Assembly: GCF_009857135.1 (NCBI RefSeq)
Contig: NZ_CP047318.1
Span: forward strand, 5,952,001-6,016,000
DNA: 64,000 bases
Direction: 5' to 3'
Source: Streptomyces sp. HM190
GTDB lineage: Bacteria; Actinomycetota; Actinomycetes; Streptomycetales; Streptomycetaceae
A program made the position numbers and the translations under genes. A model generated the notes under the pieces. That model searched no databases. It was not told the DNA's origin and saw only the letters and a list, made by a program, of their open reading frames with translations. Of this stretch, positions 1 to 17,822 are shown in pieces. Position 1 is the stretch's first letter. Every line of letters starts with the position of its first letter.

Positions 1-450
1 ATCGCCACGACCCCAAGGCTGCGACCTCGTCTGACCGAACGAGACGGTGTCCTGCGCTGCGACTGCCCTCCCGGGCGATCGGCCAGGACGCCGGCGGAAG
101 ATCCCATGCGTCGTGCTCTACGAGGCAGGACCTTCGTCGGTCACCCCGGGACGGGGCGAGCCCAGCTCATGACGTCCTCGAACGAGGCCGGAGCTCGCCA
201 GACGGTCGACGATGCGAGTAGACCACGACAACCACCCAGGGTTGACCGCCGCCGTCAGGCTGGCCTGCCAGCCCTGTCCTTTACATCCGCTCTTGAGTGA
301 ACGAGCCAGATGGAAGAGGGGACGCCGATAGCCGACAACCCATGGACCCACACCGCCCCGTACCAGCGTGATCTGACGGCGGCGTTCCGGCCGACGCAGG
401 AAGAGGAACCGGCGCGGGGCAACCACGACTTCGAGGGCGTCCACAACACC
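1..450. other. left flank, no gene recognised
   Basis: Several short reading frames exist on both strands, but none has a convincing ribosome-binding site, recognisable domain or family resemblance. The region lies outside the element's left attachment site. Its last part (about 439-487) still aligns with the element's own right end, so it may be a relic of another integrated element or of an ancestral tRNA 3' flank. Confidence 0.5.
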
Positions 451-493
451 CGACATGCAGCCGCTCCGGGCGACACACGCCTGCACGAACACG

Positions 494-533
494 AAGACCC
501 CGGCCTCAGCGTTTCCGCTGGTGACGGGGTCTT
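494..533 (-). terminator. displaced copy of the tRNA-Arg terminator hairpin
   Basis: The arms AAGACCCCG and CGGGGTCTT enclose an inner CAGCG/CGCTG stem. It is identical to the hairpin downstream of the intact tRNA-Arg at 17770-17809. Here it follows only the 3' half of the tRNA, so it probably no longer terminates a functional tRNA transcript. Confidence 0.6.
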
Positions 534-546
534 TGGGCACCTCATA

Positions 547-593
547 CAAGGTGCCCCCGGCAGGATTCGAACCTGCGCACACGGCTCCGGAGG
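547..593. other. attL core: tRNA-Arg 3' half
   Basis: These 47 bases are identical to 17823-17869. They hold the anticodon loop to the 3' end of tRNA-Arg(CCG) plus a few bases beyond. Identity stops abruptly after position 593, where the left copy continues into the element and the right copy continues into the 5' half of the tRNA. This is the expected product of tyrosine-recombinase integration at a tRNA 3' end. Confidence 0.85.
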
Positions 594-970
594 GCCCGTC
601 GGTTTCGGGAAAAGAAGCTTGTCACAGCCCTAGTGCCCCCATCGTGGGGGCGAACCAGTCCACAGGTAGTCCACAAGGTGTAGGTCCCTGACTTGCCGTG
701 GCTGGCCGGCCCGCACGGAGCATGGTCAGAGACAACCGCAAGCCCCACAGGCTCATCCGAGATCAATCTTCCTGGCTAGGGACTGCAGTCCATGCCGGAT
801 GCACCACCATCCTCGCGTCTCGTGCTTTCCGACCCTCCCACGCTCCGCAGTAGTCCCGCTCGGACCCTGCCGTAGGCAGGGTCCTGCAACCCATCCCGGT
901 GATGGTTTACACAGAGTGAACGACTGGGTACAGCACATGAATCAGCGCAAGGTTGACCTTGGGGGGCGGC
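594..970. other. attL-proximal non-coding region of the element
   Basis: It contains the arm-type site at 655-675 and otherwise no gene I can support. It presumably carries the promoter of the nuclease-like gene at 971. No -35/-10 pair stands out. Confidence 0.5.
655..675. promoter_or_regulatory. putative integrase/Xis arm-type site, left
   Basis: CCAGTCCACA and TAGTCCACA lie in tandem, two bases apart. The same pair with the same spacing occurs at 17701-17721 near the right core, and only the two spacer bases differ. Paired short repeats inside both ends of an integrated element are typical of arm-type recombinase sites. The function is inferred. Confidence 0.55.
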
Positions 971-2458
971 ATGCGAGTTTCGGAGTACTACAACCTCAAT
1001 CGCGGACAGGGAACGCTGGATTTCGTTGATGTAGACACGGTCATGGATGTCCCTGTCTACATCGACCCGAGTACGATCCGTCACTTGTCTGATGACTGGG
1101 GGAAAGAATGCATCAAAATGCTGACCACGTTCTTCGATAGCGTTCTCGATGCGGTGCGGCATGGTGACAAAGTTCGAGCAGACTATCTTCTTGGCAATCT
1201 GGGCGAACCAAACGAAACCCATCTCGGTATCTCGAAGGGCAAGAGTGCTGGTAGGGGTTTTGGTAAATGGATGCGAGAAGAGTTCGCCTTGAAGCTGGCC
1301 AAAAGCCAGGCCGCTCAATCGGGGCTAATTGAAGACCTGGAAGACACTGCCTTTTTTATCGATAAAGTCGATAAGGATATTGTTTCAGACATTACGACGA
1401 ACATTATTCGCGGACCGCTGATCACATACACGCATCAAATGGCAACGGCCTTTGGCATCCCGCTAGAGGAGGGCGTCGATAGCGGGCCTGTATGGAACGC
1501 TCAGGCTCTCAAGTGGGAAAATGGCCTAACCAGACTGCCTATTGCCGACGGGCACAAGCTCTTGCTTGTCCCGAAGGCGATCGTGCGCCGCGACCTGCAC
1601 CTGTCGCGGTCGGAGTATTATCGAAATCATCTGGTTCCGACGCTGCAGTCGGAAGAGGAGGCGGATCCGCGCAGCAAGTTGGTGAGGGTACTAAAGGGTG
1701 GAAAGAAGAAGGTATACAAGAAGGACGTGGAGGAAAAATACGGGTCCACTAAGCCCGACGTGACGCGAGAAACCCTGCAACGTCCATCGGTATACCATCA
1801 TTACAAGGAAATCAAGGCGCAGGTTGCTCCCGAGGTGATTTCCCACGCGGAGTTGAGCGAGGCGAACAGCACCCCAAAGCCTGACTATGCGGCACTCCTG
1901 CAAGCTGTGGTCGACACCCCTACTGGCAACGCGGAAGCAAACAACTATCATGCGCGCGTCGAGGCCCTTCTCACTGCCTTGTTCTACCCGTCACTCATCA
2001 TGCCGGAAATGGAGCACGAGATCCACGAAGGGAGGAAGAGGATTGACATTACCTATACCAACAATGCGAAGGATGGATTCTTTGCTTACTTGACTCGCCA
2101 TAAGATTCCAGCTCAATATGTCTTCGTCGAGTGCAAGAACTATGGGCGCGAAGTGGCCAATCCTGAACTCGACCAACTGTCGTCCCGGTTCTCTCCGTTG
2201 CGCGGGAAGTTCGGAATTCTTGCCTGCCGATCTTTCGCGGAAAAGGACCGATTTCTCGCTCGGTGCCGTGATACCGCTCTCGATCACCGCGGCTTCGTGG
2301 TGGCGCTGGACGACACCGACATGGCAAGACTGGTCGATGATGTGACGACTGCCATCAACTGGGTGCCCCCGTTTCCGCCGCCTGAGCAGCCGGTCGTCCC
2401 CCCGCGCGTCGAGAGCTACCCGCTTCTGCATGAACGTCTCAAACTCCTCGTTAGCTGA
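971..2458 (+). CDS. PD-(D/E)XK nuclease-like protein, cargo gene
   Basis: This is a 495-residue soluble protein. The C-terminal third reads as a restriction-endonuclease fold: an acidic helix residue near E331, D359 in RIDIT, and E387/K389 in VECKNY, which together give the D...ExK pattern. The N-terminal 300 residues have no domain I can name. They contain conserved-looking stretches such as NETHLG and DITTNII that recall a widespread but unnamed restriction-like family. The ATG at 971 is preceded by a G-rich stretch and preferred over the in-frame TTG at 953. It stands first in the low-GC cargo, next to attL. A defence role is inferred from fold and position, and its target is unknown. Confidence 0.75.
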   Translation: MRVSEYYNLNRGQGTLDFVDVDTVMDVPVYIDPSTIRHLSDDWGKECIKMLTTFFDSVLDAVRHGDKVRADYLLGNLGEPNETHLGISKGKSAGRGFGKWMREEFALKLAKSQAAQSGLIEDLEDTAFFIDKVDKDIVSDITTNIIRGPLITYTHQMATAFGIPLEEGVDSGPVWNAQALKWENGLTRLPIADGHKLLLVPKAIVRRDLHLSRSEYYRNHLVPTLQSEEEADPRSKLVRVLKGGKKKVYKKDVEEKYGSTKPDVTRETLQRPSVYHHYKEIKAQVAPEVISHAELSEANSTPKPDYAALLQAVVDTPTGNAEANNYHARVEALLTALFYPSLIMPEMEHEIHEGRKRIDITYTNNAKDGFFAYLTRHKIPAQYVFVECKNYGREVANPELDQLSSRFSPLRGKFGILACRSFAEKDRFLARCRDTALDHRGFVVALDDTDMARLVDDVTTAINWVPPFPPPEQPVVPPRVESYPLLHERLKLLVS

Positions 2459-2614
2459 GTGCGATAGGAGACGCGAGTCTGCATCCGGAAACAGGCACTT
2501 ACTGCGTGACTGAGGGGGAGGGGCCCTACTTCGGCTGCTCCATCTACCCACGACGTGGCTGCAGCAATTTATTCACAGGTGCCGGGCGATCGTGGACGGC
2601 CCTCAGACTTCAAC

Positions 2615-3463
2615 CTAATCGGACTCTGGTGGCTTGAGGTTGGCGTATGCCCTCGGATGTGTGCGGAGCTGCCCTTTGAGGTAGCGCCGATCACGTAGGT
2701 TTGCCATGACAGCGTCGTAATGGGCCTGTTCGGCCCCCCAATCGCGCTCAAGGTGGGGCATGGGTTCGTCCGACATCTCCTGAGCGAGGTCGTACAAGTC
2801 CTTTCGCCAAGCTGGGTCAATGGCGCGTTCGTCAACAACCGCGTTTCGAAAGGCGAAACATGCAAACAGGGTCGTCGATGCAAGCAAGGCAACAGTCTCT
2901 TTGCAGGCGGCTTCGTCGAACATAATATGTGGATCAAGGTAAAAATGATCTTCTTCTACTGAGATCTGCATCATGCAGGATTCAGCAGTTGGGTGCGCCC
3001 AAGCCGACGCCTCGGTATAGAAATGTTGGTACTTTTCAACCTCTTCGGCGGAATCTCGGCGTACATCACTGAGCCACTGACGTACACGTACGTCAGGAAA
3101 CCATTTCCCATCTCGAAGCCACTGATCAGCCAGCTTCGGGTCTTTCGCCAATACACGTGCTAGGCCTGCGGACTCGTACACAGACCGCAGCAAGTTGCGT
3201 GCCTCTGCTAGGAATCCATGACTTGTGACTACCCATGCTGCTTGCAACTGTCTGTAGCCCCTGGCTAGCGCCACTGCGGCTGCAAGCTCATTCTCGAACG
3301 TATCCTCGAATGGGAAGCGTTCGACCCTGAACGCGCCGAACCCCAGTAGGGCCATAGCCCGTCCGAACCAAGTCGTTTCGGGCCATGCTTGCGCGGTGTC
3401 CAGGAAGCGGCCCATGTGCAGTACATGGTCGGGTAGGTCATCCGAATGCTGTTCTTCCGTCAT
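2615..3463 (-). CDS. helical DUF5677-like protein, cargo gene
   Basis: This 282-residue, mostly alpha-helical protein has no signal peptide or membrane span. Residues 65-105 (RGYRQLQAAW ... LLRSVYESAG) and the WAHP motif near residue 156 resemble DUF5677-type proteins, which are abundant in mobile and defence loci and often grouped with HEPN-like helical folds. I see no clean HEPN RX4-6H motif. The gene faces the nuclease-like gene and is divergent from the kinase. The start is uncertain: the ATG at 3463 fits the conserved body, and the frame stays open 79 codons further upstream, but no strong Shine-Dalgarno is visible. Biochemical function is unknown. Confidence 0.6.
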   Translation of the reverse strand: MTEEQHSDDLPDHVLHMGRFLDTAQAWPETTWFGRAMALLGFGAFRVERFPFEDTFENELAAAVALARGYRQLQAAWVVTSHGFLAEARNLLRSVYESAGLARVLAKDPKLADQWLRDGKWFPDVRVRQWLSDVRRDSAEEVEKYQHFYTEASAWAHPTAESCMMQISVEEDHFYLDPHIMFDEAACKETVALLASTTLFACFAFRNAVVDERAIDPAWRKDLYDLAQEMSDEPMPHLERDWGAEQAHYDAVMANLRDRRYLKGQLRTHPRAYANLKPPESD

Positions 3464-3845
3464 GCGCTCATGGTGCTCGCACGCGGTGCCTTTCGCCACA
3501 TAGTTTCGTGGCGACCTCGGAGGAGTTTCGCGACTTGATGGCACCGCGCCGGCTCGGGCTTGGAAGCCATGGCGATGCCCAGACGAACAGTGTGCCGTAA
3601 ATGGACGTAAGAGATCATAAGGCAACAAAAGGGGGTGTACAGTACAAGCTATTGCGCCACTTACGGCCTCGTTCCTCGCTTCGACCGTGTTCTGGCCCAT
3701 ATGCCGCTAGTCTGGGATTGGCAAGCTCATCGCGACTCGCTGCGCAAGGGGGTTCAACGAGTCGGTCCACACCAGGCGATTGCACGTACGTCATCACTCA
3801 TGAAACGACTCTCTATGGGTCGAAAAATTCGATAACAGGATGCAG
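3464..3845. other. divergent intergenic region of the cargo island
   Basis: It separates the DUF5677-like gene from the kinase gene and must hold both promoters. The only clear structure is the near-palindrome TGTAC-A-GTACA at 3636-3646, preceded by GGGGG. I found no convincing RNA gene or further ORF. Confidence 0.5.
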
Positions 3846-4613
3846 ATGCCCGCATATAAGAAGGTCAAGGAAATTAAGTCAGGGGGGCAAGCGGCCGTGT
3901 GGCGGGGTCGAGATATGGACACCGGCCAATACGTAGCACTTAAATACTTGACGGTGCGAGGCGAAAAAAGACCAAAATCTGCGGAAGCCGAAGAGGAGCG
4001 GATTCGTTTCATTAGGGAAGTTAAGACGCAGCAGGAACTAAGTCATCCGAACATTACTCCCGTTCTTGCGTACTCAGGAAAGGTGCACCATCCGTGGTAT
4101 GCGATGCCGCTTGCGGATGAAACGTTCGAGGACTGCCTGAAAGGACCCAAGCGAGATGCTTCCTGGTCGCTTGAAGTGATTCATCAGGTTATTGATGCTA
4201 TGGAATACTCCCACGAGCAGGGTGTTATTCACCGCGACCTCAAGCCGTCAAACGTTCTTAACATCAATAACTCGTGGCTCGTGTCCGACTTTGGTTATTG
4301 CCGAAATATTCACTCCGAAAGCATCAAGATGACCCAAGCTAAGGCTTTGCTTGGTACCTGGTTTTACGCAGCGCCAGAGCAGTTCGATGATGCTCACGAA
4401 GCGGGGCCGCCGGCTGATGTCTATGCTGTCGGAAAGATCTTGATGTACTGCCTTACGGGAAACCCTCCGGGGCCATATTTGCGGCTAAAGGGAGTGCCGG
4501 AGCCCTATAAGGATGTGATCGTCCGTTGTGCAGCCGAGGAGCCGGAGGATAGATATCAGTCCATGAGTGCCTTGCGAGAGGCCCTGCTGTCTATCGCGCC
4601 ACGCAACTGCTAA
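3846..4613 (+). CDS. soluble Hanks-type serine/threonine protein kinase, cargo gene
   Basis: This is a 255-residue minimal kinase. VALK provides the ATP-binding lysine (K33), REV the helix-C glutamate (E58), HRDLKPSNV the catalytic loop (129-137), SDFG the metal-binding Asp (148), and AAPE closes the activation segment (about 175-178). There is no transmembrane segment, PASTA domain or other sensor, unlike housekeeping PknB-type kinases. AGGA lies five bases before the ATG at 3846, so this start is favoured over the ATG six bases upstream. It ends 21 bp before the DUF262 gene, so the two are probably cotranscribed. GC is well below the Streptomyces norm. It probably phosphorylates or gates its partner (inference). 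Confidence 0.85.
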   Translation: MPAYKKVKEIKSGGQAAVWRGRDMDTGQYVALKYLTVRGEKRPKSAEAEEERIRFIREVKTQQELSHPNITPVLAYSGKVHHPWYAMPLADETFEDCLKGPKRDASWSLEVIHQVIDAMEYSHEQGVIHRDLKPSNVLNINNSWLVSDFGYCRNIHSESIKMTQAKALLGTWFYAAPEQFDDAHEAGPPADVYAVGKILMYCLTGNPPGPYLRLKGVPEPYKDVIVRCAAEEPEDRYQSMSALREALLSIAPRNC

Positions 4614-4634
4614 GACCGTACAAAAGGAGATCCC

Positions 4635-6368
4635 ATGTCGTCTATGTTCAAAGAGGACCCAGTATTCAAGGCGACCCCGGAATCCATCGGATCGCTGGTC
4701 GCTTCGATTCATAAAGGCACGATCGCAATCCCTGATTTTCAGCGCAGTTTTGTTTGGGACCCTAAGCGCACAGTGGAGCTTCTGAAGTCAATTATTTCTC
4801 GTTATCCGGCTGGCACGCTGCTGACCTGGGAGCAGTCAACAAGCGTTAAGTTCGGCAGCCGACCGTTCGAAGGAGCTCCGGATCCTCAAAAGGAGCCAAA
4901 GCGTCTAGTCCTTGACGGTCAGCAGCGTTTGACTGCTTTGTATCAAGCGCTCACTGGTTCCGGTGACTATCAATTCTTCATGAAGGTTTGGCCCTTTATT
5001 GATAGAAGTCGAGGCACCCTGCTGAACCTGGAGGACGTTGACCTAGATAGTGCGCTCCTGGCATATGACTTGAGTGGCAGGATGCGCTTCAATCCGCTCG
5101 ATGAAGAGTGGCAGATTTCCAAGGGTGTATTTCCCGTTGCGGCGTATGAGCGACTACGCCCATGGTTTAAGAAGTTGGCGCGATCGGTGGAAGAGGATCG
5201 TGATGCTGCAGATCAGCTGGAAGAGGTGCTGAATCAGTTCAGAGATACATATCTACAACCCTTGGAGTCGTACGCTTTTCCAGTTGTCGATCTACCAGCA
5301 AGCACATCCCTCGTAGCGGTGTGCAATATCTTCGAGACTTTGAACAAGTCTGGAAAGGTTCTTGGGCCATTTGAGCTCTTGACTGCCAAGTACTACCCTA
5401 CCGGTGTTCACCTAAGGGATATGTGGGATACTGCATGCCAGCAATATCCACTGCTCGTAGACTTCGCAGTTGACCCGTATAGCGTGCTCCAGGCGATTTC
5501 GCTTCGATCGCGCGGATCTGCCCAGCGTTTCGATGTTCTTAACCGCCTCGATGCATCGAGCGTAGGGGAGCACTGGAACGCGACTGTAGCTGCTTTCGCA
5601 GATGTTCTCGATATGCTTAAGCGCGAGTGTGGCGTTATTTCCGCACAGTGGTTGCCCTACAGTATGACTGTGGTTCCGATGGCTGCCGTATACCCCGAGG
5701 TGGCCCAACTAAGATCTCAGTACCGGGCTTTGGCTCGGGAACGACTTCGCCAATACTATTGGTGCACAGTATTCACCGAGAATTTTGATCAAGGCGCGAA
5801 TAGTCAGGCTGGGGCTGACTATAAGCTTCTGCGTGGATGGGTCGTTGGGGACTCTCAGGAGGCTCCCGAAGCTGTCAGCGAATTTAATCTCACCGACTTT
5901 GATTTGTTGAGCGCGCGAGCCAACAGGAAGGCCCTCTTCAGGGGATTCGTGACGCTCCTCATCCAGTCAGGGGCGAAGGACTTCCTCACAGCGCAGGCGA
6001 TTACAAATCTGGATCCTGCAGGTTTCATTCTAGATGGTGCCCGAATTTTCCCGAAGGTATGGCTCGATCTGTCGGGAAATAACCCGGAGGGGCATAGTTC
6101 GGAGCTGATCCTGAACCGGCTTATGATCGATAAATCGCTTCGCCGCCTGATCAAGGATAGGCCTTTTGGTGAATTTGTTGCTGCGCAGGAAGAGTTCGAT
6201 CGTCACAAGTATGTCGACGTCTTGAGCTCTCACCTCGTGGACGATGGCGAGGAAAGCGGCCTGGAACGGTTGGATTACAATTTGTTCCTTCAGGAGCGCT
6301 TGACGTTGCTCGTGGAACAGATTGAAGCCGTCACAGGCCAGTCGCTGATCTATGAGTCTGAGGGCTAG
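4635..6368 (+). CDS. DUF262 (GmrS-like) protein with degenerate HNH domain, cargo gene
   Basis: This protein has 577 residues. The N-terminal DUF262 signature is clear: IPDFQRSFVW (32-41) and LVLDGQQRLTAL (91-102), the ParB/GmrS-like nucleotide-binding fold used in type IV restriction (GmrSD) and related defence proteins. The C-terminus has the outline of the DUF1524/HNH nuclease, with GARIFPK at 468-474 and ILNRL near 492-496. The His-His that normally precedes IFPK is replaced by Ala-Arg, and the later Asn-Arg motif reads LRR. Nuclease activity is therefore doubtful. The start has an excellent AAAGGAGA Shine-Dalgarno. It is the downstream partner of the kinase. The function is unproven. Confidence 0.85.
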   Translation: MSSMFKEDPVFKATPESIGSLVASIHKGTIAIPDFQRSFVWDPKRTVELLKSIISRYPAGTLLTWEQSTSVKFGSRPFEGAPDPQKEPKRLVLDGQQRLTALYQALTGSGDYQFFMKVWPFIDRSRGTLLNLEDVDLDSALLAYDLSGRMRFNPLDEEWQISKGVFPVAAYERLRPWFKKLARSVEEDRDAADQLEEVLNQFRDTYLQPLESYAFPVVDLPASTSLVAVCNIFETLNKSGKVLGPFELLTAKYYPTGVHLRDMWDTACQQYPLLVDFAVDPYSVLQAISLRSRGSAQRFDVLNRLDASSVGEHWNATVAAFADVLDMLKRECGVISAQWLPYSMTVVPMAAVYPEVAQLRSQYRALARERLRQYYWCTVFTENFDQGANSQAGADYKLLRGWVVGDSQEAPEAVSEFNLTDFDLLSARANRKALFRGFVTLLIQSGAKDFLTAQAITNLDPAGFILDGARIFPKVWLDLSGNNPEGHSSELILNRLMIDKSLRRLIKDRPFGEFVAAQEEFDRHKYVDVLSSHLVDDGEESGLERLDYNLFLQERLTLLVEQIEAVTGQSLIYESEG

Positions 6369-6941
6369 AACCCGAAACCCCACGGACCGACATCGCAGCG
6401 TGATGCTCCACGATCGGTCTCACGGAAACGATTGTGAATCGTATGCTGCCATAGGGCCGGCTCCTGTAGGCGCGGTCGGCGGAGCGGCTTTGGGGTGGCG
6501 CTGCTTTGGCGCGAGTGATCATGGCCCCGTAAGCTTCCGGCGCGTCGGGCAGTCTGTGGACCTGCCCGGTAAAGCACGACGTTGGGGCCATGATCTTCGA
6601 GGCTCGCGCCAAAGTGGCTCCGTAAAGCCGTGGAGTCGACCGCCCCAGCCACGACGCACCTCTTCTCTGGCATCAGGCGGCTGATTGCTTAGTGCGCGGC
6701 ACGGGCGCCGGCCGGGCTGGAGCGGGGCGGAGACTGGAGCGCAGGCCCGGCCGGGGGGCGGGCCGCGCGCGGGGAGCGAAGCGAGCCGCCTTGAACCAGT
6801 AGAGAAAGTTTGAATCACGGAGAGGGCTGGGGCCGTGTCCGGTCCCGGTAGATGCTTGACAGTTCGATCCCAGCTGATGGTTGACGGTGGCCGTGATCGG
6901 CTTTTCTGTGCCGGGCTGCCCCGTGGTGTAGAACCCTGAGC
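6369..6941. other. non-coding region between cargo and backbone
   Basis: It marks the step from the lower-GC cargo to high-GC AICE backbone. It contains the long nested inverted repeat at 6485-6630 and a GC-rich stretch (about 6700-6790). Two direct repeats GATG(C/G)TTGAC (6851-6860 and 6876-6885) lie just upstream of the XRE regulator. No protein-coding gene is supported. Confidence 0.55.
6485..6630. repeat. long nested inverted repeat (imperfect hairpin)
   Basis: Outer arms CGGCTTT (6485-6491) and AAAGCCG (6624-6630) are followed inward by CTTTGGCGCGAG (6504-6515) with CTCGCGCCAAAG (6603-6614), then ATCATGGCCCC with GGGGCCATGAT (6584-6594). A central CGGGCAG/CTGCCCG stem closes it. The whole can fold as one 146-nt cruciform or RNA hairpin. 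It could be a single-strand origin, a structured RNA, or the end of a lost mobile element. Confidence 0.65.
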
Positions 6942-7031
6942 ATGGGGAGTGAGCGGCGGGAGCGGATGCGGGCGCTTGGTGCGCGTCTTCGGGAACTTCG
7001 GGCAGAAGCCGGGTTGACGGGTGCTGCGCTA

Positions 7032-7974
7032 GGGCGTGTATCGAATGTGCTGGTCACAGCCATTCATTGATGGCCGCTACGAGGACGGTCGCCTCGTAGC
7101 GGACCGCGAGCTTGTCGTACCTCGTGGCCACGGCCCGGTGCCTTTTGAGGCGGTTGATGCCGCACTCGACCGCGTGCCGAGCCTTGTAGTCCTGCGGGTC
7201 GAACTTCGGCGGTCGGCCGCCGCGCGAGCCGCGTTTCTTGCGGTTGCGGGCCTGGTCGGCCTTGTCCGGGATGGTGCAGCGGATCCTGCGCTGCCGCAGG
7301 TAAGCGCGGTTCTTCCGGGAGGCGTACGCCTTGTCGGCGCGCACACGATCGGGCCGGGTGCGCGGCCTGCCTGGGCCAAGACGCGGGACGCGGATCTTGT
7401 TCAGGACAGGCTCGAACTGCGGGGAGTCGCCCCGCTGGCCGGCCGTGATCACGATGGACATGGGCTTCTGGCCTTGTTCGACGGCCAGGTGCAGCTTGGT
7501 GGTCAGGCCACCGCGCGAGCGGCCGAGGCCGTGGTCGTCGGGCTCGACGCCGACGCCGCCGGGCGGCTCCTTCTGCAGCTCCCCTTTTTCCTTGCCCCGG
7601 CGGCGTGCTGGTGGGCCCGACACACCGTGGAGTCGACGTTGATGTCCCAGGTGATCAGCTCTTTCGCGTCGGCCCGGGCCTGGAGCGCGGTGAAGATCCG
7701 ATGCCAGGTGCCGTCCCGCTGCCACCGCCGGAACAAGTCGTACGCCCGGCCCCACGGCCCGTACTCGGCGGGCAGGTCCCGCCACGGAACGCCAGTACGG
7801 ACCCGGAACCGTATGCCGTCGATCAGCTGCCGCCTGGCCCACGTCGGCGGCCGTCCGGGCTTCTTGCCCTTCGGCAACAGCGGTTCCAGCACCGCCCATT
7901 GCGCGTCCGTCAGATCTCCACGTGCCACGAAGCAAGATCATCTCACGTTCAAGATCCACTTTCGACACACACCC
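7032..7974 (-). mobile_element. IS5-family insertion sequence (IS427-like), 943 bp
   Basis: The terminal inverted repeats start GGGCGTGTATCGAATGTG (left) and GGGTGTGTGTCGAAAGTG (right, reverse strand), 15 of 18 matching. The TA directly flanking each end (7030-7031 and 7975-7976) is the target duplication. The target was the palindrome GCGC-TA-GCGC inside the XRE gene. Size, TA target and a two-frame transposase fit the IS427 group. Confidence 0.9.
7054..7928 (-). CDS. IS5-family transposase, orfAB joined by -1 frameshift
   Basis: OrfA (7503-7928, 141 codons) encodes the N-terminal DUF4096-type region ([11 protein letters not shown]) and the first DDE aspartate ([10 protein letters not shown]). 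OrfB (to the stop at 7054) carries the second Asp ([12 protein letters not shown]) and the Glu ([11 protein letters not shown]) of the DDE catalytic triad. The frames meet at AGG-AAA-AAG-GGG (around 7582-7592), where a -1 slip on AAA-AAG joins them. This matches programmed frameshifting in IS427-like elements, and both halves otherwise look intact. Confidence 0.88.
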
Positions 7975-8740
7975 TAGCGCAGCGTGCCGGGGTAGGACAG
8001 CCGACTGTGTCCAAGGTCGAGACCGGCCGCATGGTTCCGAGCGTTGATGTGCTCGACCGCCTCTCAGGCGCTCTCGGTCTCGATGAGTCGACCGCTCGTG
8101 AGGTTCGTGAGCTGCTGCATGCTGTGATGGCCGCTCCGGGTGCTGACCAACAGGCAGAGGGCACAACTGCGGGCGCCGCCAGCACCGTTGACGAAGAAGT
8201 GCGGTCCGCGCAGCTGGTGAGGTCGTTCCAGTGCGTTGTGTTGCCGGCCCTGCTTCAGACCGCGGAGTACGCCCGGCATGTCTTCGCGAGTGTGCCGAAC
8301 TCGACGCCTGATGCCATCGGTCGGGCGGTGGCTGCCCGCATCGAGCGGCAGAGCGTGTTGTACGAGCCGGGTCGGGAGTCGGTGTTCGTGCTGACCGAAG
8401 CCGTGTTGCGTACCTGGCCGGGGACTCCTGCGCTCATGCTCGCCCAGCTCGACCGGCTGCTGGCTGTCGAGAGCCTGGACACGGTGCGGCTCGGTGTCAT
8501 CCCGTGGCGTCGGCGGGTGCCGGTGCTGCCTCGGCACGGATTCACCCTGTGCGATCAGAGGGCCGTTGTCGTCGAGACCTTCGACCGTGAGCGTGTGTCG
8601 GCTGACTCCGCTGAACTGGCCGCTTACGAGGAGACGTTCGCCCGCTTCAAGGAAGCGGCCGTCTTCGGCGACGAGGTGCGGGAGCTGTTGGTGCGTTCGA
8701 TGGCGGACTTCCGCAGCTTGGGAGACACCCTCACTCGATA

Positions 8741-8755
8741 GAGGAATAATTCCTC
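8741..8755. promoter_or_regulatory. perfect palindrome after the XRE regulator gene
   Basis: GAGGAAT-A-ATTCCTC overlaps the stop region of the XRE gene and is followed by CTAGATGCCTAG. It lies in the promoter region of the RsbW-like ATPase gene, so it is a plausible operator or transcription stop. There is no U-rich tail, so operator is preferred. Confidence 0.45.
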
Positions 8756-8802
8756 TAGATGCCTAGCTTGCTGCTCCGTCATGGGAATACTCTGCCGTTG
8801 CG

Positions 8803-8822
8803 CTGTCTAGCCCCCTAGACGT
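8803..8822. promoter_or_regulatory. element operator, copy 1 (before ATPase gene)
   Basis: GTCTAG-CCCC-CTAGAC (8805-8820) has perfect six-base arms and ends about 20 bases before the ATG at 8840. It belongs to the palindrome family found at 9368, 11133, 11178, 11222 and 14589. Confidence 0.65.
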
Positions 8823-8839
8823 AGAGTGAGGGATCTCCC

Positions 8840-9235
8840 ATGCGTACCAAGTGGTGCCGCGCCTTTCCCGGCCTGGCCGAGGAGGTGGGTCATGCTCGAC
8901 GCTTCGTCGCTGCTCTGCTGGAGGAGCGAGGACCGGTCGACGACGCGGTCCTGGTCGTCAGTGAGCTTGCGACAAACGCTGTGCGGCATTCGTTGAGCGG
9001 CGCGGCCGGCGGCTGGTTCGTCGTGGTCGTCAGCTTCGGCGACGACAGTGACCTTGTGCGCATCGAGGTAGTCGATGTGGGCGGTGAACGCGAGCCTCAC
9101 CTGTGTGACGTGACGGACCGGGATGAGGGTGGTCGCGGTCTGGCGCTGGTGGCCGCATGCGCCAAGGACTGGGGTATCAAGAGCTGGCCCGACGGGCGGA
9201 CCGTGTGGGCGGACCTGGTGCGGGAGGGCGTGTGA
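8840..9235 (+). CDS. RsbW/SpoIIAB-like ATP-binding protein
   Basis: This 131-residue protein of the GHKL HATPase_c_2 type is typical of streptomycete anti-sigma-factor-like kinases. The N-box is SELATNAVRHS (about 47-57), the G1-type motif is VVDVGG (about 79-84) and the glycine-rich G2 is DEGGRGLALVAA (about 95-106). There is no sensor domain or phospho-accepting His, so it is not a two-component kinase. It sits in the AICE regulatory block, just upstream of an HTH protein and a PP2C-like phosphatase. Together these suggest a partner-switching circuit controlling the element (inference). Confidence 0.85.
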   Translation: MRTKWCRAFPGLAEEVGHARRFVAALLEERGPVDDAVLVVSELATNAVRHSLSGAAGGWFVVVVSFGDDSDLVRIEVVDVGGEREPHLCDVTDRDEGGRGLALVAACAKDWGIKSWPDGRTVWADLVREGV

Positions 9236-9367
9236 TCGCGTCCGCCTCGACGGTCGTCTCTGGTCGCCTCGCGGGCGGTGACGGGTGAGCCCTCGGGGGG
9301 TGCCCGGCAGACGGTCGCGGTTCTACGTGGTCGGCGTAAGTACGGGACGCCGTCTCCCGCCCATTCC

Positions 9368-9383
9368 GTCTAGGGCCCTAGAC
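9368..9383. promoter_or_regulatory. element operator, copy 2 (before HTH gene)
   Basis: GTCTAGGGCCCTAGAC is a perfect 16-bp palindrome lying 28 bases before the ATG at 9411 and just upstream of its Shine-Dalgarno. It has the same arms as copy 1 with a different four-base centre. Confidence 0.68.
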
Positions 9384-9410
9384 TCCTGGTTAGTGCTAGG
9401 AGGTGAAGTC

Positions 9411-10271
9411 ATGTCGGACGAGTTGCAGCGGATCATGGCGATTGATGATCCGTACCGGCTGTTGCGCGAGGTCACGACCCGGTTGGCTGATGCACAGCAG
9501 GAGGTGACCGAGCTGGCTCGCCTTCGTCGACGCGTGGTCCAGGACCTGCACGCGCAAGGGCTGTCGTATGCGCAGATCGCCGAGAAGGCGGGCCTGAGCC
9601 GCGGGCGCATTCACCAGATCCGGCACACCGGTCCGGCGCCGGAAGGGGCCTTCCTCGGCCGGGGTTCCGTCGTCGTCGCTACGCCTCTGCGGCGTGATGA
9701 CGAGCACGGGCGGACGGTCGTCGCCATGGACGACGTCAGCTCCGGCAAGCGGCTGGAAGACCTCGCGCGGACATACGGGCTCGAAGTCGCCTCGGAGCAT
9801 GTGTCGGTCGGTGGAGAGATCGACCTCAATCGAGACGGCCTGGTCGTCGTCTGTGGGCCGCGTATGTCCCAGGAGATGTGGGACACGTACGCACAAGATC
9901 CCGTTCTGAGCTGGGAGCGCGCGGAAGACGGGCCCTGGACGGTGGTGGACCGGCGCACCGGCACCGTGTACCGGTCGGGCCAGGACAGCGACCCGGCCCG
10001 GCCGTACGACGTCGGATACCTCGGCCGGCTGCCGCGCCCGGACGGCAACGGTTCGTTGCTCGCCATCGCCGGTATCCACACTCAGGGTTCTCTCGGCGTC
10101 GTGCAGCTGCTCGCCAGCGACCTGAACACGCTGTGGGGCCAGGTCGGTGACCGCCGGTTCTCCACGCTGGTCGGCGTCGAGTACGACCCGGAGACCAGCG
10201 AACCGCAGTCCGCCGAGCTGCTCTGCCCCCTCTACCGGCATGACGAAGAGGCGACGGAGGCAGCGGGGTGA
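9411..10271 (+). CDS. helix-turn-helix protein, sigma-70 region 4-like, AICE regulator
   Basis: This protein has 286 residues. After a coiled-coil-like start (residues 14-45, LLREVTTRLADAQQEVTELA) comes an HTH, LSYAQIAEKAGLSRGRIHQI (about 55-74), of the sigma-70 region 4/Trp-repressor type. The C-terminal 200 residues (GLVVVCGPRMSQEM ... LLAIAGIHTQGSLGVVQLLA) have no domain I recognise, but such sequences recur beside streptomycete plasmid genes. The ATG at 9411 is chosen for its AGGAGGTGAAGTC ribosome site. It is probably the DNA-binding arm of the regulatory block. Its stop overlaps the next start (GTGA), indicating cotranscription. Confidence 0.75.
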   Translation: MSDELQRIMAIDDPYRLLREVTTRLADAQQEVTELARLRRRVVQDLHAQGLSYAQIAEKAGLSRGRIHQIRHTGPAPEGAFLGRGSVVVATPLRRDDEHGRTVVAMDDVSSGKRLEDLARTYGLEVASEHVSVGGEIDLNRDGLVVVCGPRMSQEMWDTYAQDPVLSWERAEDGPWTVVDRRTGTVYRSGQDSDPARPYDVGYLGRLPRPDGNGSLLAIAGIHTQGSLGVVQLLASDLNTLWGQVGDRRFSTLVGVEYDPETSEPQSAELLCPLYRHDEEATEAAG

Positions 10272-11089
10272 GGTTCGCCCTCACCACACTGCCCGCCGAA
10301 CCCGACCGCGAGAACGAGGACTTCGCCGCTGCCGCCCCCGGCGCGGCCGTTGTCCTCGACGGTGCCGGTGTGGGCGGGGCTGAGACCGGTTGCACGCACG
10401 GCGTCGCCTGGTTCTCCGCAACCCTGGGCGCTCTGCTGCTGCGCAGCATGACCGCGCATCCCGCCAGGCCGCTCGCCGACTGCCTCGCCGACTCGATCAG
10501 TCTCGTCCGGTCGCTGCACGAGGACAGTTGCGACCTCGCCTACCGGGCCAGTCCCACCAGTACGGTCGTCGCCGCGCGGCTCGGCGGGGGAGCTCTTGAG
10601 TACCTCGTTCTCGGCGACTCCTCCCTGCTGCTGGCAGACAGGGAAGGCCGTACGACCGTCGTCACCGACCGGCGCCTGGACGAGGTCGGCAAGCGGCTGC
10701 GCGGGGCCGTCGACCAACTGCCCACCGGATCGCCGGAACACACTGCCGCGCTCGCCGAGTACCGGGATGCCCTTACCGGGCTCCGCAACCGGCCGGGCGG
10801 CTTCTGGATCGCCGGCCCCGATCCACGGGCGGCCGAGCATGCTCTGACCGGGACGGTGCCGCTGGACTCGCTGGCGTCCGTGACGCTGATGAGCGACGGT
10901 GCCACGCGACTCGTCGACCGGTTCGAACTCGCGGACTGGAGCGAGACGTTGTCTCTCCTCGACTCGTCGGGGCCGGATGAGCTGATCCGCCGTGTACGGG
11001 AAGCCGAGGCTGGCGACCCAGAGGGCCGGCGCTGGCCGCGGGGCAAGGCTCGCGACGACGCGACCGCCCTCCACTGGGCCTTGGACTGA
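10268..11089 (+). CDS. PP2C-like serine/threonine phosphatase
   Basis: This protein has 273 residues with a GTG start overlapping the previous stop. PP2C motifs appear in order: RENEDF (14-19), VVLDGAG (28-34), STVVAARL, LGDSSLLLA (about 118-126), TLMSDGATRLV (about 206-216) and ARDDATALHW near the end. The acidic residues that hold the metal pair are present. It is translationally coupled to the HTH protein. With the RsbW-like ATPase two genes upstream it could provide the phosphatase half of a partner-switching circuit. It might also oppose the cargo kinase at 3846, though nothing in the sequence proves that link. Confidence 0.78.
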   Translation: MRFALTTLPAEPDRENEDFAAAAPGAAVVLDGAGVGGAETGCTHGVAWFSATLGALLLRSMTAHPARPLADCLADSISLVRSLHEDSCDLAYRASPTSTVVAARLGGGALEYLVLGDSSLLLADREGRTTVVTDRRLDEVGKRLRGAVDQLPTGSPEHTAALAEYRDALTGLRNRPGGFWIAGPDPRAAEHALTGTVPLDSLASVTLMSDGATRLVDRFELADWSETLSLLDSSGPDELIRRVREAEAGDPEGRRWPRGKARDDATALHWALD

Positions 11090-11132
11090 CGCACGCAACT
11101 CACGCGAGCGGTGAGGCCGCGACCCAACTCGT

Positions 11133-11237
11133 ATACCCCCCTAGACAGTTCGAGCGACGGTCGTTTACCTTAGCTGTAGACCCCCCTAGACAGTTCAGGC
11201 GGCGGTCACCCTCCCTTCATGCTGTCTAGGGGGGTAT
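11133..11237. promoter_or_regulatory. cluster of three operator half-sites upstream of the transfer operon
   Basis: ATACCCCCCTAGACAG occurs at 11133-11148. AGACCCCCCTAGACAG (one mismatch) lies at 11178-11193, and the exact inverse of the first, CTGTCTAGGGGGGTAT, lies at 11222-11237. Two face one way and one the other, 44-45 bp apart (about four helical turns), which suits cooperative binding and looping. The cluster ends about 58 bases before the SCO3933-family start codon. Confidence 0.68.
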
Positions 11238-11295
11238 CCAGTTGGAATGGTGCTGCTCAGCGAGTGGGCATCAACGACCCTGTGAGGTACAGACA

Positions 11296-11643
11296 ATGCG
11301 TGTCATCCCCGTGGACACCTCGGCCGCGACGCTGCTCATCACCAAGCTGCCGGAGGTCAAGGTGAGGGACCGGCAGACCGGTGAGGTGGCCGTTGACCCG
11401 GTGACCAACCAGCGGCTTATGACCGTGGAGTTGGTGTTCATCGCGGCCGGTGGCTCGGACATGATCAAGGTGACCGTTCCCGAGCAGGGCATCGGTGACG
11501 GTCTGGTCATGGGCGCCCCGGTCATCCTGTCCGGTCTGGTCGCTCGGCCCTGGGAGAGCGAGTTCGGGGGGCGCGCCCGGCACGGCATCGCCTACCGGGC
11601 CGACGCCGTCATGGTCAACGCCCCGGCTCCGGTTCAGGGTTGA
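11296..11643 (+). CDS. SCO3933-family regulatory protein
   Basis: This 115-residue protein starts MRVIPVDTS. It has a beta-rich OB-like body and a VKVRDRQTGEVAVDPVTNQ segment characteristic of the SCO3933 family, found at the head of AICE and streptomycete plasmid transfer operons. The ATG at 11296 is preferred over an upstream in-frame start at 11242, which overlaps the operator region. Its stop overlaps a possible start of the translocase gene. A role in transfer control or as a single-strand DNA binding accessory is plausible, but neither is shown here. Confidence 0.8.
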   Translation: MRVIPVDTSAATLLITKLPEVKVRDRQTGEVAVDPVTNQRLMTVELVFIAAGGSDMIKVTVPEQGIGDGLVMGAPVILSGLVARPWESEFGGRARHGIAYRADAVMVNAPAPVQG

Positions 11644-11648
11644 TCGCC

Positions 11649-13040
11649 GTGACGGAGGGATTCCGGGTTCCGCTATCGATTCTGCTGCCGGTCCTGCTGG
11701 TCCTGGTCGCGCTACTGGTCGTGCGCCGTCGTATGCCGGTCGTGTTCTGGTGGCTCCTCGGCTATCCGGTCGCCGCGCTGAGGGTGCTCGTGTCGTACCG
11801 GGACACGATGGACGCGTGTGGTCTGACGGTCCCGGCCTCGGCCGTCCGTCGGGCCACCGCCCGGATGGTCGGGCGCCAGGCCGCGCCGGTACCGCCTCGG
11901 CGGTCGTTCCCGCTGCCGACCGGGTCCGGTCTCGTGATGCGGCTGCGTATGGCGGCGGGTCAGGCTCCCGAGGACTTCATGGCCTCCGCCGACCGGCTGC
12001 GGCACGCCTGGGGCGTCCATGCCGTGTACGTCCGCACCACAAAGCCGGGGCGGCTCGAACTGAGGCTCGTCGGCTGGGACGTGCTCGCCGAGGTCAAGCC
12101 GGCCCGGCGTCGGCCGGGGTCCGATCCGCTTCGCCTGCCGCTGGCGCTGCGGGAAGACGGTGAGTGGCACGTACGGGACTTCCGCACCGTGCCGCACGAA
12201 CTGATCCTCGGCGCCACGCAGTCCGGCAAATCCGTCTACCTGCGCAATCTGCTGTGCGGTCTGGCCCGGCAGTCGGTCGTGCTCGTCGGCATCGACTGCA
12301 AGTGGGGCGTGGAACTCGCCCCGTTCGCACCACGGTTGTCCGCGCTCGCCGACACTCCCGACCGGGCTGACGAACTCCTGGACGCGCTGGTGGACGAGAT
12401 GGAGGCACGATTCCGGCTCATCGGGCTCCGTAGTGGTGCGGGCAGTGGGGCCGATCCGGACGCCGTGCTCACCTCGGATGTGTGGGGGCTGCCGGAAGCC
12501 GTACGGCCGGTGCCGGTCGTAGTCGTCGTCGACGAAGTGGCGGAACTGTTCCTCGCCGCGAACCGGGACGACGAGAAGCGACGAGACGCCATGGTCACCA
12601 AGCTGATTCGCCTCGCCCAGCTCGGGCGTGCGGCCGGCATCTACCTGGAGGTGTGCGGGCAGCGTTTCGGATCCGAACTCGGCAAGGGGGCCACCATGCT
12701 CCGTGCCCAGCTGACCGGCCGCGTCTGCCACCGCGTCAACGATGAAGCCTCGGCGAACATGGCACTCGCCGACATCTCCCCGGAAGCGGCCCTCGCTGCT
12801 ACCGCCATCCCGGCCGAACGCCCCGGCGTCGCCGTCGTCGGTGACTCCTCTGGCGGCTGGTCCCGCGTCCGCGCACCACACTTCACCCTCGCCGAAGCGG
12901 CGGCCGTGTGCCGTGATACCGCCGCACTGATGCCGGACCTGCCCCGGCTCGACTCCTTCCGGCCCGCCGTCGCCGTGGAGTCCGCCGTCCCGTCCTCTGC
13001 CACCGCTGCCGTTCCCACCGCCCAGCCGGTGACCGAGTAG
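11649..13040 (+). CDS. FtsK/SpoIIIE-type DNA translocase, TraSA-like conjugation protein
   Basis: This protein has 463 residues. Two hydrophobic segments near the N-terminus (about 7-24 and 29-45) anchor it in the membrane. The motor domain has Walker A GATQSGKSV (about 187-195) and Walker B VVVVVDEVAELF (about 289-300). A single protein of this kind moves double-stranded plasmid DNA between mycelial cells in AICEs and Streptomyces plasmids. GTG 11649 is the likely start, with TTG 11640 as an alternative. It follows the SCO3933-family gene without a gap and is followed by the spread genes. Confidence 0.9.
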   Translation: MTEGFRVPLSILLPVLLVLVALLVVRRRMPVVFWWLLGYPVAALRVLVSYRDTMDACGLTVPASAVRRATARMVGRQAAPVPPRRSFPLPTGSGLVMRLRMAAGQAPEDFMASADRLRHAWGVHAVYVRTTKPGRLELRLVGWDVLAEVKPARRRPGSDPLRLPLALREDGEWHVRDFRTVPHELILGATQSGKSVYLRNLLCGLARQSVVLVGIDCKWGVELAPFAPRLSALADTPDRADELLDALVDEMEARFRLIGLRSGAGSGADPDAVLTSDVWGLPEAVRPVPVVVVVDEVAELFLAANRDDEKRRDAMVTKLIRLAQLGRAAGIYLEVCGQRFGSELGKGATMLRAQLTGRVCHRVNDEASANMALADISPEAALAATAIPAERPGVAVVGDSSGGWSRVRAPHFTLAEAAAVCRDTAALMPDLPRLDSFRPAVAVESAVPSSATAAVPTAQPVTE

Positions 13041-13119
13041 CCCCTTCCTCACCCGGTCGGCGCGACCGTCTCGCGCCACGTCCCTACCTCTCCCATGCCA
13101 ATAACCGGAAGGAAACCCG

Positions 13120-13860
13120 ATGACCGCCATGGTCAAGCGCCTGCGGGTCGACGCCGTGATCGTCCAGGCCGTCATCGCCGGTGCCCTGTCCTTCTCCCAC
13201 CTGCACGACCTCGCCGAAGCGGCCGGACAGGGCGGCTGGAAGGCCTGGGCCTACCCCGTCAGCGTCGACCTACTGCTGGTCGCCGCCTGGCGCCGGATGC
13301 GGCAGGCACAGCGAGCGGGCCTGGGGGCCGGGGGGCCGCGGCTGTGGTTCCTGGTGGCCCTGACCGCCTCCCTCGGCGCCAACGTCGCCACCGCCGGGCT
13401 CCTCGACCTCGACCACGTCCCCGCCTGGCTCCGCGTCCTGGTCGCGGGCTGGCCGGCCGTCGCCTTCTTCGGCGGCACGCTCCTCGCCCACACACCACAC
13501 CACCCCCAGGAAGCGCCCGAGGTCCCGGCCTCGTCGACGACTGACCCGCACGAGGAATCACGCTCCGCCCCGACGACCGTCGACATGCCCGACCCGGTCG
13601 CGCTCCCGGCCACCGACCCCGCCCCTGAACCCACCACCAGCAAACCAACCACCGTCGCCGGCCCGGTGATCGACTCCACCCCTGCTCGGGTCCCGGCGGC
13701 CGTTCCCGCCGTCGCTCTCCCTCCCGCTCTCGTCGACCGCGTCCGGGAGCTCGCCGACGAACACCGCTCGGCCACCGGCCACCCCGCCGACCCCGACGCC
13801 GTACGCGCCCGGCTCGGCCTGCCCCCGTCCATGACCGCGTCCGTCGCCGCTCACCTCTGA
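13120..13860 (+). CDS. DUF2637 membrane protein, SpdB-like
   Basis: This protein has 246 residues. Residues 10-120 hold about four hydrophobic segments (AVIVQAVIAGALSFSHL, WAYPVSVDLLLVAAW, LWFLVALTASLGANVATAGL, LRVLVAGWPAVAFFGGTLL) typical of DUF2637. A Pro/Thr-rich linker (about 130-200) leads to a C-terminal region ending ADPDAVRARLGLPPSMT, which resembles a small winged-helix tail. DUF2637 proteins accompany TraB/TraSA translocases and help intramycelial spread. GGAAGGAAA lies before the ATG. Confidence 0.82.
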   Translation: MTAMVKRLRVDAVIVQAVIAGALSFSHLHDLAEAAGQGGWKAWAYPVSVDLLLVAAWRRMRQAQRAGLGAGGPRLWFLVALTASLGANVATAGLLDLDHVPAWLRVLVAGWPAVAFFGGTLLAHTPHHPQEAPEVPASSTTDPHEESRSAPTTVDMPDPVALPATDPAPEPTTSKPTTVAGPVIDSTPARVPAAVPAVALPPALVDRVRELADEHRSATGHPADPDAVRARLGLPPSMTASVAAHL

Positions 13861-13872
13861 GAAGGGACCGCC

Positions 13873-14052
13873 ATGCATCGCCGCTTCCGCAACGTCCGCC
13901 GTATCGGCCCCGTGAACGTCGCCTCCTACCTCGAACGCGGCAAGCACCGCCACCTGGCCGCCTGTACCGCGCCCCGGTGCGACTTCTCCGCCGAGTACGA
14001 CTCACGCGCCGCCGCCGAACTCGCCGCCCGCACCCACCGCTGCTCGGCCTGA
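13873..14052 (+). CDS. small mobile-element transfer protein, zinc-ribbon-like
   Basis: This 59-residue basic protein starts MHRRFRNVRRIGPVNV. A CTAPRCDF pair and a C-terminal HRC could bind one zinc ion. It starts 12 bp after the DUF2637 gene with GAAGGGA as ribosome site. Short proteins of this type (annotated elsewhere as mobile element transfer or Spd proteins) occur at this position in many AICEs. Confidence 0.8.
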   Translation: MHRRFRNVRRIGPVNVASYLERGKHRHLAACTAPRCDFSAEYDSRAAAELAARTHRCSA

Positions 14053-14068
14053 CAGGAGACCACCCCTC

Positions 14069-14224
14069 ATGGACGTACCGCTCTGGCTCGCCCTCCTCTG
14101 CATCGGGGTCCTGGGCGTCAAGCTCATCCGCCCGCCCTGGTGGCTCATCACCGTGCTGCTCCTCGGCGGCTACCTCATCGCCGACAGCCTGCTGGCCCCC
14201 GTCATCAACTCCCTCGTCAAGTAA
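14069..14224 (+). CDS. small membrane protein, SpdA/SpdC-like
   Basis: This protein has 51 residues with two hydrophobic stretches, VPLWLALLCIGVLGVKLI and WWLITVLLLGGYLIADSLL, and little else. CAGGAGA precedes the ATG by eight bases. It lies in the spread operon, 16 bp after the previous gene. It probably sits in the membrane with the other Spd proteins during plasmid spreading. It is too short for firm family assignment. Confidence 0.72.
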   Translation: MDVPLWLALLCIGVLGVKLIRPPWWLITVLLLGGYLIADSLLAPVINSLVK

Positions 14225-14243
14225 CCGAGAAGGAGACCCGCTC

Positions 14244-14555
14244 ATGCTCCGGCCCAAGATCCCGACCATGCCTCAGCCCACCGGCCTGGTGACACCGCCT
14301 GCGGTCATCGAGTCGACCGTCGCCACCCCGGCCGCCCTGACCGCGCAGCCAGCACCCGCCGCCCCCGCGCCGTCCCGTCCGGCCGTCCAGCTCACTCCCG
14401 GCACCGCGCTCGCCCTCGTCGGCGGCGGCACCGCCGTGGTCCTGGTCGTCGGCGCCGTCCTCGTCTCCATGCTCCTCGCCGTCGCCGTCACGGCCACCTC
14501 GACCGCCGTGTGCGCCGTCGTCATCCGTTCTCTCCTCACCCGCCGCGACCGCTGA
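14244..14555 (+). CDS. SpdD-like spread protein
   Basis: This protein has 103 residues: a Pro/Ala-rich N-terminus (1-50), one long hydrophobic region (ALALVGGGTAVVLVVGAVLV and on to about residue 93), then a basic C-terminal RRDR. This layout matches SpdD-type proteins of Streptomyces plasmids and AICEs. AAGGAGA precedes the ATG. It is the last gene of the spread operon before the rep operator. Confidence 0.78.
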   Translation: MLRPKIPTMPQPTGLVTPPAVIESTVATPAALTAQPAPAAPAPSRPAVQLTPGTALALVGGGTAVVLVVGAVLVSMLLAVAVTATSTAVCAVVIRSLLTRRDR

Positions 14556-14588
14556 CGCGACGACTCCACGCGCCCGGCCCTACCCATA

Positions 14589-14608
14589 CTGTCTAGCCCC
14601 CTCGACAG
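14589..14608. promoter_or_regulatory. element operator, copy before the replication gene
   Basis: CTGTCTAG-CCCC-CTCGACAG has eight-base arms with one mismatch and lies 49 bases before the rep start codon. Its place suggests that replication, excision and integration genes share a regulator with the transfer and regulatory genes. Confidence 0.66.
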
Positions 14609-14657
14609 ATGGGTCGGGCGCGCCAGACCCGCGATCCCTGCAAGGAGGAACCCGCAC

Positions 14658-17700: not shown

Positions 17701-17721
17701 CCAGTCCACACATAGTCCACA
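17701..17721. promoter_or_regulatory. putative integrase/Xis arm-type site, right
   Basis: CCAGTCCACA-CA-TAGTCCACA is the counterpart of the site at 655-675. It lies between the integrase stop and the 143-bp direct repeat, as expected for the P' arm. The function is inferred from symmetry. Confidence 0.55.
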
Positions 17722-17769
17722 GCGTCCGACATACAGCCGCTCCGAGCGGCACACGGCTGCACAAACACG

Positions 17770-17809: not shown

Positions 17810-17822
17810 TGGGCACCTCATG

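Follow-up and report, generated by a model that had tools for sequence, protein, structure and literature searches.

A conserved kinase–DUF262 gene pair in the exchangeable cargo slot of a Streptomyces integrative and conjugative element

Four genes of low G+C content (GC) lie at one end of an integrated element in the chromosome of Streptomyces sp. HM190, and the question they raise is whether they form one anti-phage system, several, or none. The element is a 17.3-kb actinomycete integrative and conjugative element (AICE) inserted in a tRNA-Arg(ccg) gene; it was analysed within a 64,000-nucleotide stretch of contig NZ_CP047318.1 (the window), in which the four-gene island adjoins the attL repeat (Table 1). 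All four open reading frames (ORFs) are present and open, with starts set from relatives. Their GC is 54.5% for a PD-(D/E)XK-type nuclease gene, 55.9% for a DUF5677 gene, and 52.6% for each of a Ser/Thr kinase gene and a DUF262 gene. Across positions 8000-17598 the element has 69.7%, and the window from 18000 to 64000 has 70.4%. The contrast of 53-56% with about 70% confirms the initial annotation of four lower-GC genes between attL and the AICE backbone. Comparison with relatives indicates that the PD-(D/E)XK nuclease and the DUF5677 protein each stand alone and that the kinase and DUF262 genes form a two-gene system, which makes three separate units in all.

The case for the two-gene system comes from conservation of gene order. 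When 84,980 species were scanned with two short patterns, 171 DUF262 relatives came up, and 80 of these were retained. The closest among these 80 are from Streptomyces tailanensis (locus L036, 61%) and Kitasatospora xanthocidica (L045, 62%), and at these two loci alone the DUF262 gene is immediately preceded, on its own strand, by a kinase of the window type (53 and 45-46%). In the window the pair is a tight operon, kinase first, with 21 bases from stop to start. The three paired DUF262 proteins form a clade with support 1.0; in a tree of 12 sequences the three paired kinases also form a clade (support 0.96), and their sister group is four solo kinases. The L036 and L045 pairs sit in different surroundings, one of them near a tRNA-Val gene, and in both a type IV restriction gene adjoins the pair (PADLOC mREase_IV, E 0 and 3e-233). 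By these comparisons the kinase and DUF262 genes are a real pair, one operon kept in three species. A search of 394 genomes of the class found no further pairs; among 394 genomes of the family, the matches beyond the own genome were G452 and G572 (45%) and G344 (62%), the last probably K. xanthocidica L045 again, to judge by its identical contig position. Viral contigs held no DUF262 relatives and phage records a single match (27%), while plasmids gave four (25-35%). The best of these, from Aulosira, is the one that was inspected, and its upstream gene is annotated as a sensory box/response regulator.

Could all four genes nevertheless act as one defence system? They lie side by side and share a similar low GC, as parts of one system might. 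Against it, their orientations are opposed, and across 242-246 sampled genomes of the genus their relatives always fall in different genomes, at thresholds that differ by gene (1e-60, 1e-15, 1e-10 and 1e-35): those of the nuclease are in G007, G120, G205 and G235 (with partial ones in G031 and G206), of the DUF5677 protein in G189, of the kinase in G125, G149, G158 and G163, and of the DUF262 protein in G038. Absence of the kinase is not strict in this count, since at most 11 kinase candidates were scored per genome. When 15 loci of relatives were searched by tblastn with all four proteins, more than one of them was found only at L036 and L045, as the kinase–DUF262 pair. The single four-gene system was rejected on the genome counts and the loci together, and we rate its probability as very small. 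The nuclease, the DUF5677 protein and the pair would thus move separately. The initial annotation had allowed for one or two systems and proposed co-occurrence of all four genes as a check; co-occurrence holds for the pair and fails for the four, so that, as far as sequence can show, kinase and DUF262 are separate from the other two genes, a point that the initial annotation had left open, and these two are units of their own.

What kind of DUF262 protein has the kinase as its partner? Its family is secure (Pfam GmrSD_N, 1.1e-30), and it has the DGQQR motif, which is kept in 71/71 aligned DUF262 proteins. The alignment comprised 65 of the 80 loci plus the window protein, a paralogue in the same genome, G038, Aulosira, L117 and L118; the 15 loci outside it had no best ORF of at least 480 aa at E <= 1e-15. 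The catalytic HNH motif of GmrSD (DHIYP or HHIFP with a downstream N in DUF1524) is absent from the window protein: in the three paired proteins HH has become AR, IR or VQ, and TN has become LR, IK or TR. In GmrD, nuclease function has been proposed for D113, H114 and N178, with a metal-binding role suggested for the Asn (PMC4619093), and BrxU carries DHIYP (PMC8565348); these residues were mapped by inference to the HH/DH and TN of the relatives. The catalytic H and N are kept in 64 of the 71 proteins. The other seven are the three paired proteins, the same-genome paralogue, L081, which keeps HH and has lost only the N, and two distant proteins, L099 and L100. Because its HNH site is lost, the window protein is probably not a GmrSD nuclease despite the family name: the label DUF262/GmrS had placed it in the right family while overlooking the loss of the nuclease residues.

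The HNH fold itself is predicted to remain though its active site is gone. A structure model of the DUF262 protein (pLDDT 90.4, pTM 0.82) has BrxU chains as its only three Foldseek matches below 1e-3 (E 8e-13, with TM just 0.36-0.39). With VIA-align, in which Z below 8 may reflect chance arrangements, the model matches BrxU with Z 17-18 and a root-mean-square deviation (rmsd) of 18-19, the C-terminal part of SspE (7dri) with Z 12.1, DndI with 10.2, ParB with 6.3 and many Cas9 HNH domains with 3-6.7. We read the large rmsd at high Z for BrxU as probably due to domain shifts. Differences at the three codon positions over the gene (31-33/21-26/64-65%) indicate purifying selection and not decay.

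The kinase is minimal, as had been proposed, consisting of the domain alone (Pfam Pkinase, 3e-33). It keeps the active-site motifs of Hanks-type kinases (ALKY, HRDLKPSN, DFG and APEQ), and all the paired kinases keep the active site and end where the kinase domain ends. Three solo sister kinases (L031, L033 and L034) run about 170 residues further; these C-terminal parts share a SHxR(F/Y) motif, and no Pfam domain was found in that of L006, which is taken as the same protein as L034. The best PADLOC match is PD-T4-6 (2.6e-51), and a search against the PDB gave nothing at 1e-25. Stk2 and PD-T4-6 are single-gene defences, whereas a partner gene is adjacent in 3/3 loci of this kinase clade.

These features suggest that the role of weapon has passed from a nuclease-dead DUF262 protein to the kinase. 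The DUF262 (ParB-like) domain would most likely recognise phage or plasmid DNA on entry by some mark or state that it bears, and would then hydrolyse a nucleoside triphosphate (NTP) as SspE and BrxU do. In SspE and BrxU this switch licenses an HNH domain in the same chain; here it would turn on a separate kinase, through contact between the two proteins, and the kinase would phosphorylate host proteins and halt growth, an abortive infection. A DUF262 sensor acting through a kinase would, by analogy, be the simplest joining of three precedents: in SspE, recognition of the mark triggers GTP hydrolysis and this in turn licenses the HNH domain (PMC13251355); Menshen combines a DUF262 protein with a predicted OLD nuclease encoded separately (PMC10952713); and in KKP, kinase toxicity can stop phages (PMC11341870). 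Taken jointly with the cargo slot described below, this account of sensing, kinase activation and growth arrest is a serious possibility that we stop somewhat short of believing. A more specific version is offered more tentatively: a GmrSD/SspE-type sensor gave up its nuclease and came to command a separate kinase by NTP-driven switching, the two families being re-paired, each having lost what its partner provides (in the kinase the C-terminal sensor part, in the DUF262 protein the catalytic site), and the dead HNH domain may be the dock for the kinase. If true, restriction-type sensing of DNA or its modification would be wired to phosphorylation and not to cutting, linking two classes of bacterial immunity and giving a role to a DUF262 protein without a working nuclease. 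The pair is directly testable, as two short genes and point mutants in a laboratory Streptomyces.

Each known relative of the pair shares one part of this arrangement. With the GmrSD/BrxU type IV restriction enzymes (DUF262 plus DUF1524) the window protein has in common the DUF262 domain, DGQQR, a whole-length match to BrxU and the predicted HNH fold, and it differs in the changed His and Asn positions and in the kinase encoded just upstream. SspE, the phosphorothioate-sensing effector encoded with the modification genes sspABCD, likewise combines a DUF262 switch with an HNH-type C-terminal domain, whose catalytic residues the window protein lacks. Menshen, Dazbog and PD-T4-2 are described as systems with a DUF262 gene and without DUF1524 (PMC10952713); the DUF262 protein of the window, by contrast, is partnered by a protein kinase and retains an inactive HNH domain. 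Stk2, KKP and PD-T4-6 have Hanks-type kinases, whereas the window kinase is domain-only with a conserved DUF262 partner and there is no phosphatase in the pair. No title on a DUF262–kinase defence pair, or on such a pair under inactive GmrSD, DUF262 or DUF1524, appeared in the literature searched, a body that leaves bioRxiv and most subscription journals outside.

The pattern of conservation within the DUF262 protein bears on how it might act. Among the three paired proteins conservation is highest in the DGQQR region and in the core block after it (59 and 61% invariant, compared with 29% for residues 441-520), suggesting that the protein still depends on NTPase switching and not on binding alone. 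This weighs against a role in which the DUF262 protein restrains a kinase that is toxic by itself, as its antitoxin or as a phage-sensitive lock upon it. The 577-aa DUF262 protein would also be unusually large for an antitoxin. Such an arrangement, which we think unlikely, would nevertheless accord with the tight operon and its leading kinase, with the paired kinases being without a C-terminal part that could restrain the solo ones, and with KKP, whose kinase toxins are restrained by a partner phosphatase (PMC11341870).

Several observations count against a kinase commanded by a DUF262 sensor. The searches yielded no more than three pairs, all of them from Streptomyces and Kitasatospora. A profile of seven kinases finds a kinase within 600 bases of the DUF262 gene in 5/80 loci, and at L068, L079 and L095 distant DUF262 proteins adjoin other kinases and keep HH/TN; a kinase neighbour thus does not require a dead HNH domain. 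Nor is HNH loss unique to pairing, since the distant L099 and L100 are also without the residues, as is the same-genome paralogue (L002/L035, on the same chromosome; L035 8763-10580), which has no window-type kinase within 18 kb. Relaxed constraint around the dead site is only suggested by the sequences: HNH-to-N-domain identity ratios in the three paired proteins are 0.51, 0.69 and 0.75, and those of HNH-intact relatives average 0.88 with a range of 0.69-1.03 (34 non-independent comparisons), a range that includes two of the three. Lastly, the ParB/Srx (GmrS) domain has itself been proposed as a nuclease (PMC4619093). That proposal, and the intact DGQQR, would allow the DUF262 protein to be still the effector through its ParB/Srx domain, by NTPase action or nicking, with the kinase regulating it by phosphorylation and doing no more. 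In SspE, however, the HNH point mutation N724A abolishes defence, so that there the HNH domain is the weapon (PMC13251355), and a ParB/Srx effector here seems improbable.

The inference that the DUF262 protein and kinase serve in defence draws much of its support from where the island lies. A search with the element's integrase gave matches at E <= 1e-120 in 71/199 genus genomes, the own genome counted. Twenty of the listed integrase places were taken as siblings, 19 of them usable, the other (L150) being a 2.9-kb contig end. Backbone parts recur in each of the 19, and none has a blastn match of at least 60 bases to window positions 632-6443. The conserved inner edge of the island (about 6444-6810), or part of it, is present in 15 and attL was seen in 8 of the 20; L160 and L164 match the rep-int side only, and the inner edge is missing from L155 and L167. 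Compared in this way, the region between attL and the inner edge is a slot for exchangeable cargo in an AICE of the pSAM2 type. Among plasmids, nothing closely matched the island DNA.

The slot ORFs of 15 siblings were listed, and 20 chosen ORFs from 12 siblings were scanned, none from L151, L154 or L167. PADLOC models matched in 8 of the 12: a kinase (L149), HerA/mad8 (L152), a restriction gene (L153), a GmrSD-like gene (L156), a ThsB-like gene (L157), restriction-modification genes (L158 and L168) and PifA (L165). The kinase and HerA matches count for less because their models are broad or generic. No match was found in the chosen ORFs of the remaining four (L155, L159, L163 and L166), and the slot is thus a mapped place in which to seek further systems. 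Pfam finds a NACHT domain in the slot of L155 and an McrBC component in that of L153. In the sibling L156 (7020-8948) a GmrSD_N domain is fused to a Schlafen AlbA_2 domain, another DUF262 sensor with a different effector. The expectation that AICE cargo ends often carry defence is therefore right for this AICE family, and with the type IV restriction neighbours of the pairs it makes defence cargo a reading of the island that is well supported by context.

Variable AICE cargo includes restriction-modification genes and has frequent pseudogenes (PMC9513070), and the island might serve addiction or conjugation control, or be decaying cargo, with no defence role. A PP2C-type phosphatase of the same AICE backbone could pair with the kinase for such ends. 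Purifying selection on the DUF262 gene, the intact kinase site and the type IV restriction neighbours argue otherwise; the phosphatase is also found in sibling AICEs whose cargo differs, and neither of the other pair loci has it. We therefore rate a non-defence role as distinctly unlikely. A KKP-like link of the kinase to the PP2C gene at 10268 was likewise rejected: the same PP2C is found in siblings L151 (the same element as L031), L152, L154 and L157 (77-79%) and L167 (42%), with no match at L036 or L045. KKP has two kinases and a PP2C together, whereas the island has one kinase and the AICE PP2C is backbone. The PP2C gene (10268-11089) belongs to a regulatory backbone module (DUF5753, HATPase, HTH and PP2C) present in some siblings only.

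The other two island genes appear to be independent passengers of the slot. The nuclease matches the PADLOC candidate PDC-M36A (1.8e-36, profile positions 7-431 of 457), and D359, E387-x-K389 and Q402 are invariant in 5/5 aligned sequences, which we read as forming a PD-(D/E)XK site. The PD-(D/E)XK label is thus upheld by the alignment and the PADLOC profile, and goes without a Pfam match above cut-off (best HSDR_N_2, E 0.06); the nuclease profile found nothing meaningful in the PDB, and viral contigs held no relatives. No partner gene was recognised for it here: no M36 model at E <= 1 was seen in the other island proteins (for the kinase, among the best 25 of 36 rows), and the sole real protein shared by the ORFs near the window nuclease and four relatives (L024-L027) is the nuclease family itself. 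The PADLOC names PDC-M55 and PDC-M36 had no mention in the literature searched. At L026 (G120) a tRNA-Ser lies on one side and a copy of the inner edge on the other, and between them no gene besides the nuclease was recognised, the other three island genes being absent; at L027 (G007) the nuclease likewise lies by the inner edge, and a second nuclease-family gene, a distant one, comes between them. These two genes at L027 (8686-12103) face each other and are 48 and 24% identical to the window protein. Two AICE-like loci, L029 (G031) and L033 (G163), have flanks 86% alike and different cargo just past the shared flank, a nuclease relative (27%, partial match) in the first and a window-type kinase in the second.

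The DUF5677 label, given earlier to this helical protein on the opposite strand, holds up with a narrow shortfall. The window protein scores 27.0 against a Pfam cut-off of 27.1, and two relatives pass at 29.7 and 28.6. Loci L030 and L170 hold a DUF5677 relative without the other three island genes.

Table 1. Positions in the window of the island genes, their motifs and the parts of the AICE
Feature	Position	Strand	Basis
attL, 155-nt direct repeat copy (3' part of tRNA-Arg plus flank)	439-593	.	tRNA detected only at other copy
PD-(D/E)XK-type nuclease, 495 aa, PDC-M36A-like, separate unit	971-2458	+	PADLOC, alignment
DUF5677 protein, 282 aa, separate unit	2615-3463	-	Pfam; start set by relative in L030
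Ser/Thr kinase, domain-only, 255 aa, first gene of pair	3846-4613	+	Pfam, motifs
DUF262 (GmrSD_N) protein, 577 aa, HNH-dead C-terminal domain, second gene of pair	4635-6368	+	Pfam, alignment, model
DGQQR NTPase motif, residues 94-98, intact	4914-4928	+	alignment
A469-R470, HH or DH of HNH domain in relatives	6039-6044	+	alignment
L502-R503, TN in relatives (Asn proposed to bind metal)	6138-6143	+	alignment
Inner edge of cargo slot, conserved; long hairpin as single strand	6444-6810	.	siblings and folding
Insertion sequence (IS4/5-family transposase, DUF4096) inside XRE/DUF5753 regulator gene	7025-7976	-	Pfam, sibling comparison
FtsK/SpoIIIE-type transfer protein, AICE backbone	11640-13040	+	Pfam
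RepSA replication initiator, AICE backbone	14658-16025	+	Pfam
Tyrosine integrase, AICE backbone	16144-17598	+	Pfam, integrase search
attR repeat copy, overlaps intact tRNA-Arg(ccg) 17826-17899	17715-17869	.	repeat and ARAGORN

The element has the features of a pSAM2-type AICE: att repeats at a tRNA gene, an integrase, a RepSA-type Rep (Pfam RepSA, 3.5e-152) and an FtsK-type Tra (FtsK_SpoIIIE, 1e-33). The Phage_integrase match (2e-5, 24.8 bits) lies just under its Pfam cut-off of 27.1. The two copies of the 155-nt direct repeat are 94% identical, and the single tRNA that ARAGORN detects in the window is the tRNA-Arg(ccg) at the right copy. Promoter and terminator scans gave scores below shuffle means.

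The inner edge is 72-93% identical in 15/20 siblings and in L026 and L027. It is 90-93% alike in L149, L159 and L027, compared with 68-75% for most coding parts; in L151 and L154 its identity is no better than that of coding parts. Positions 6470-6660 fold into a long hairpin (z -4.86, with 0/200 shuffles equally good), which makes them a candidate origin of transfer or of single-strand replication. The next backbone gene beyond this edge is interrupted by an insertion sequence that the initial annotation overlooked; siblings L151, L152, L154 and L157 have an unbroken sequence there, to within 8 bases.

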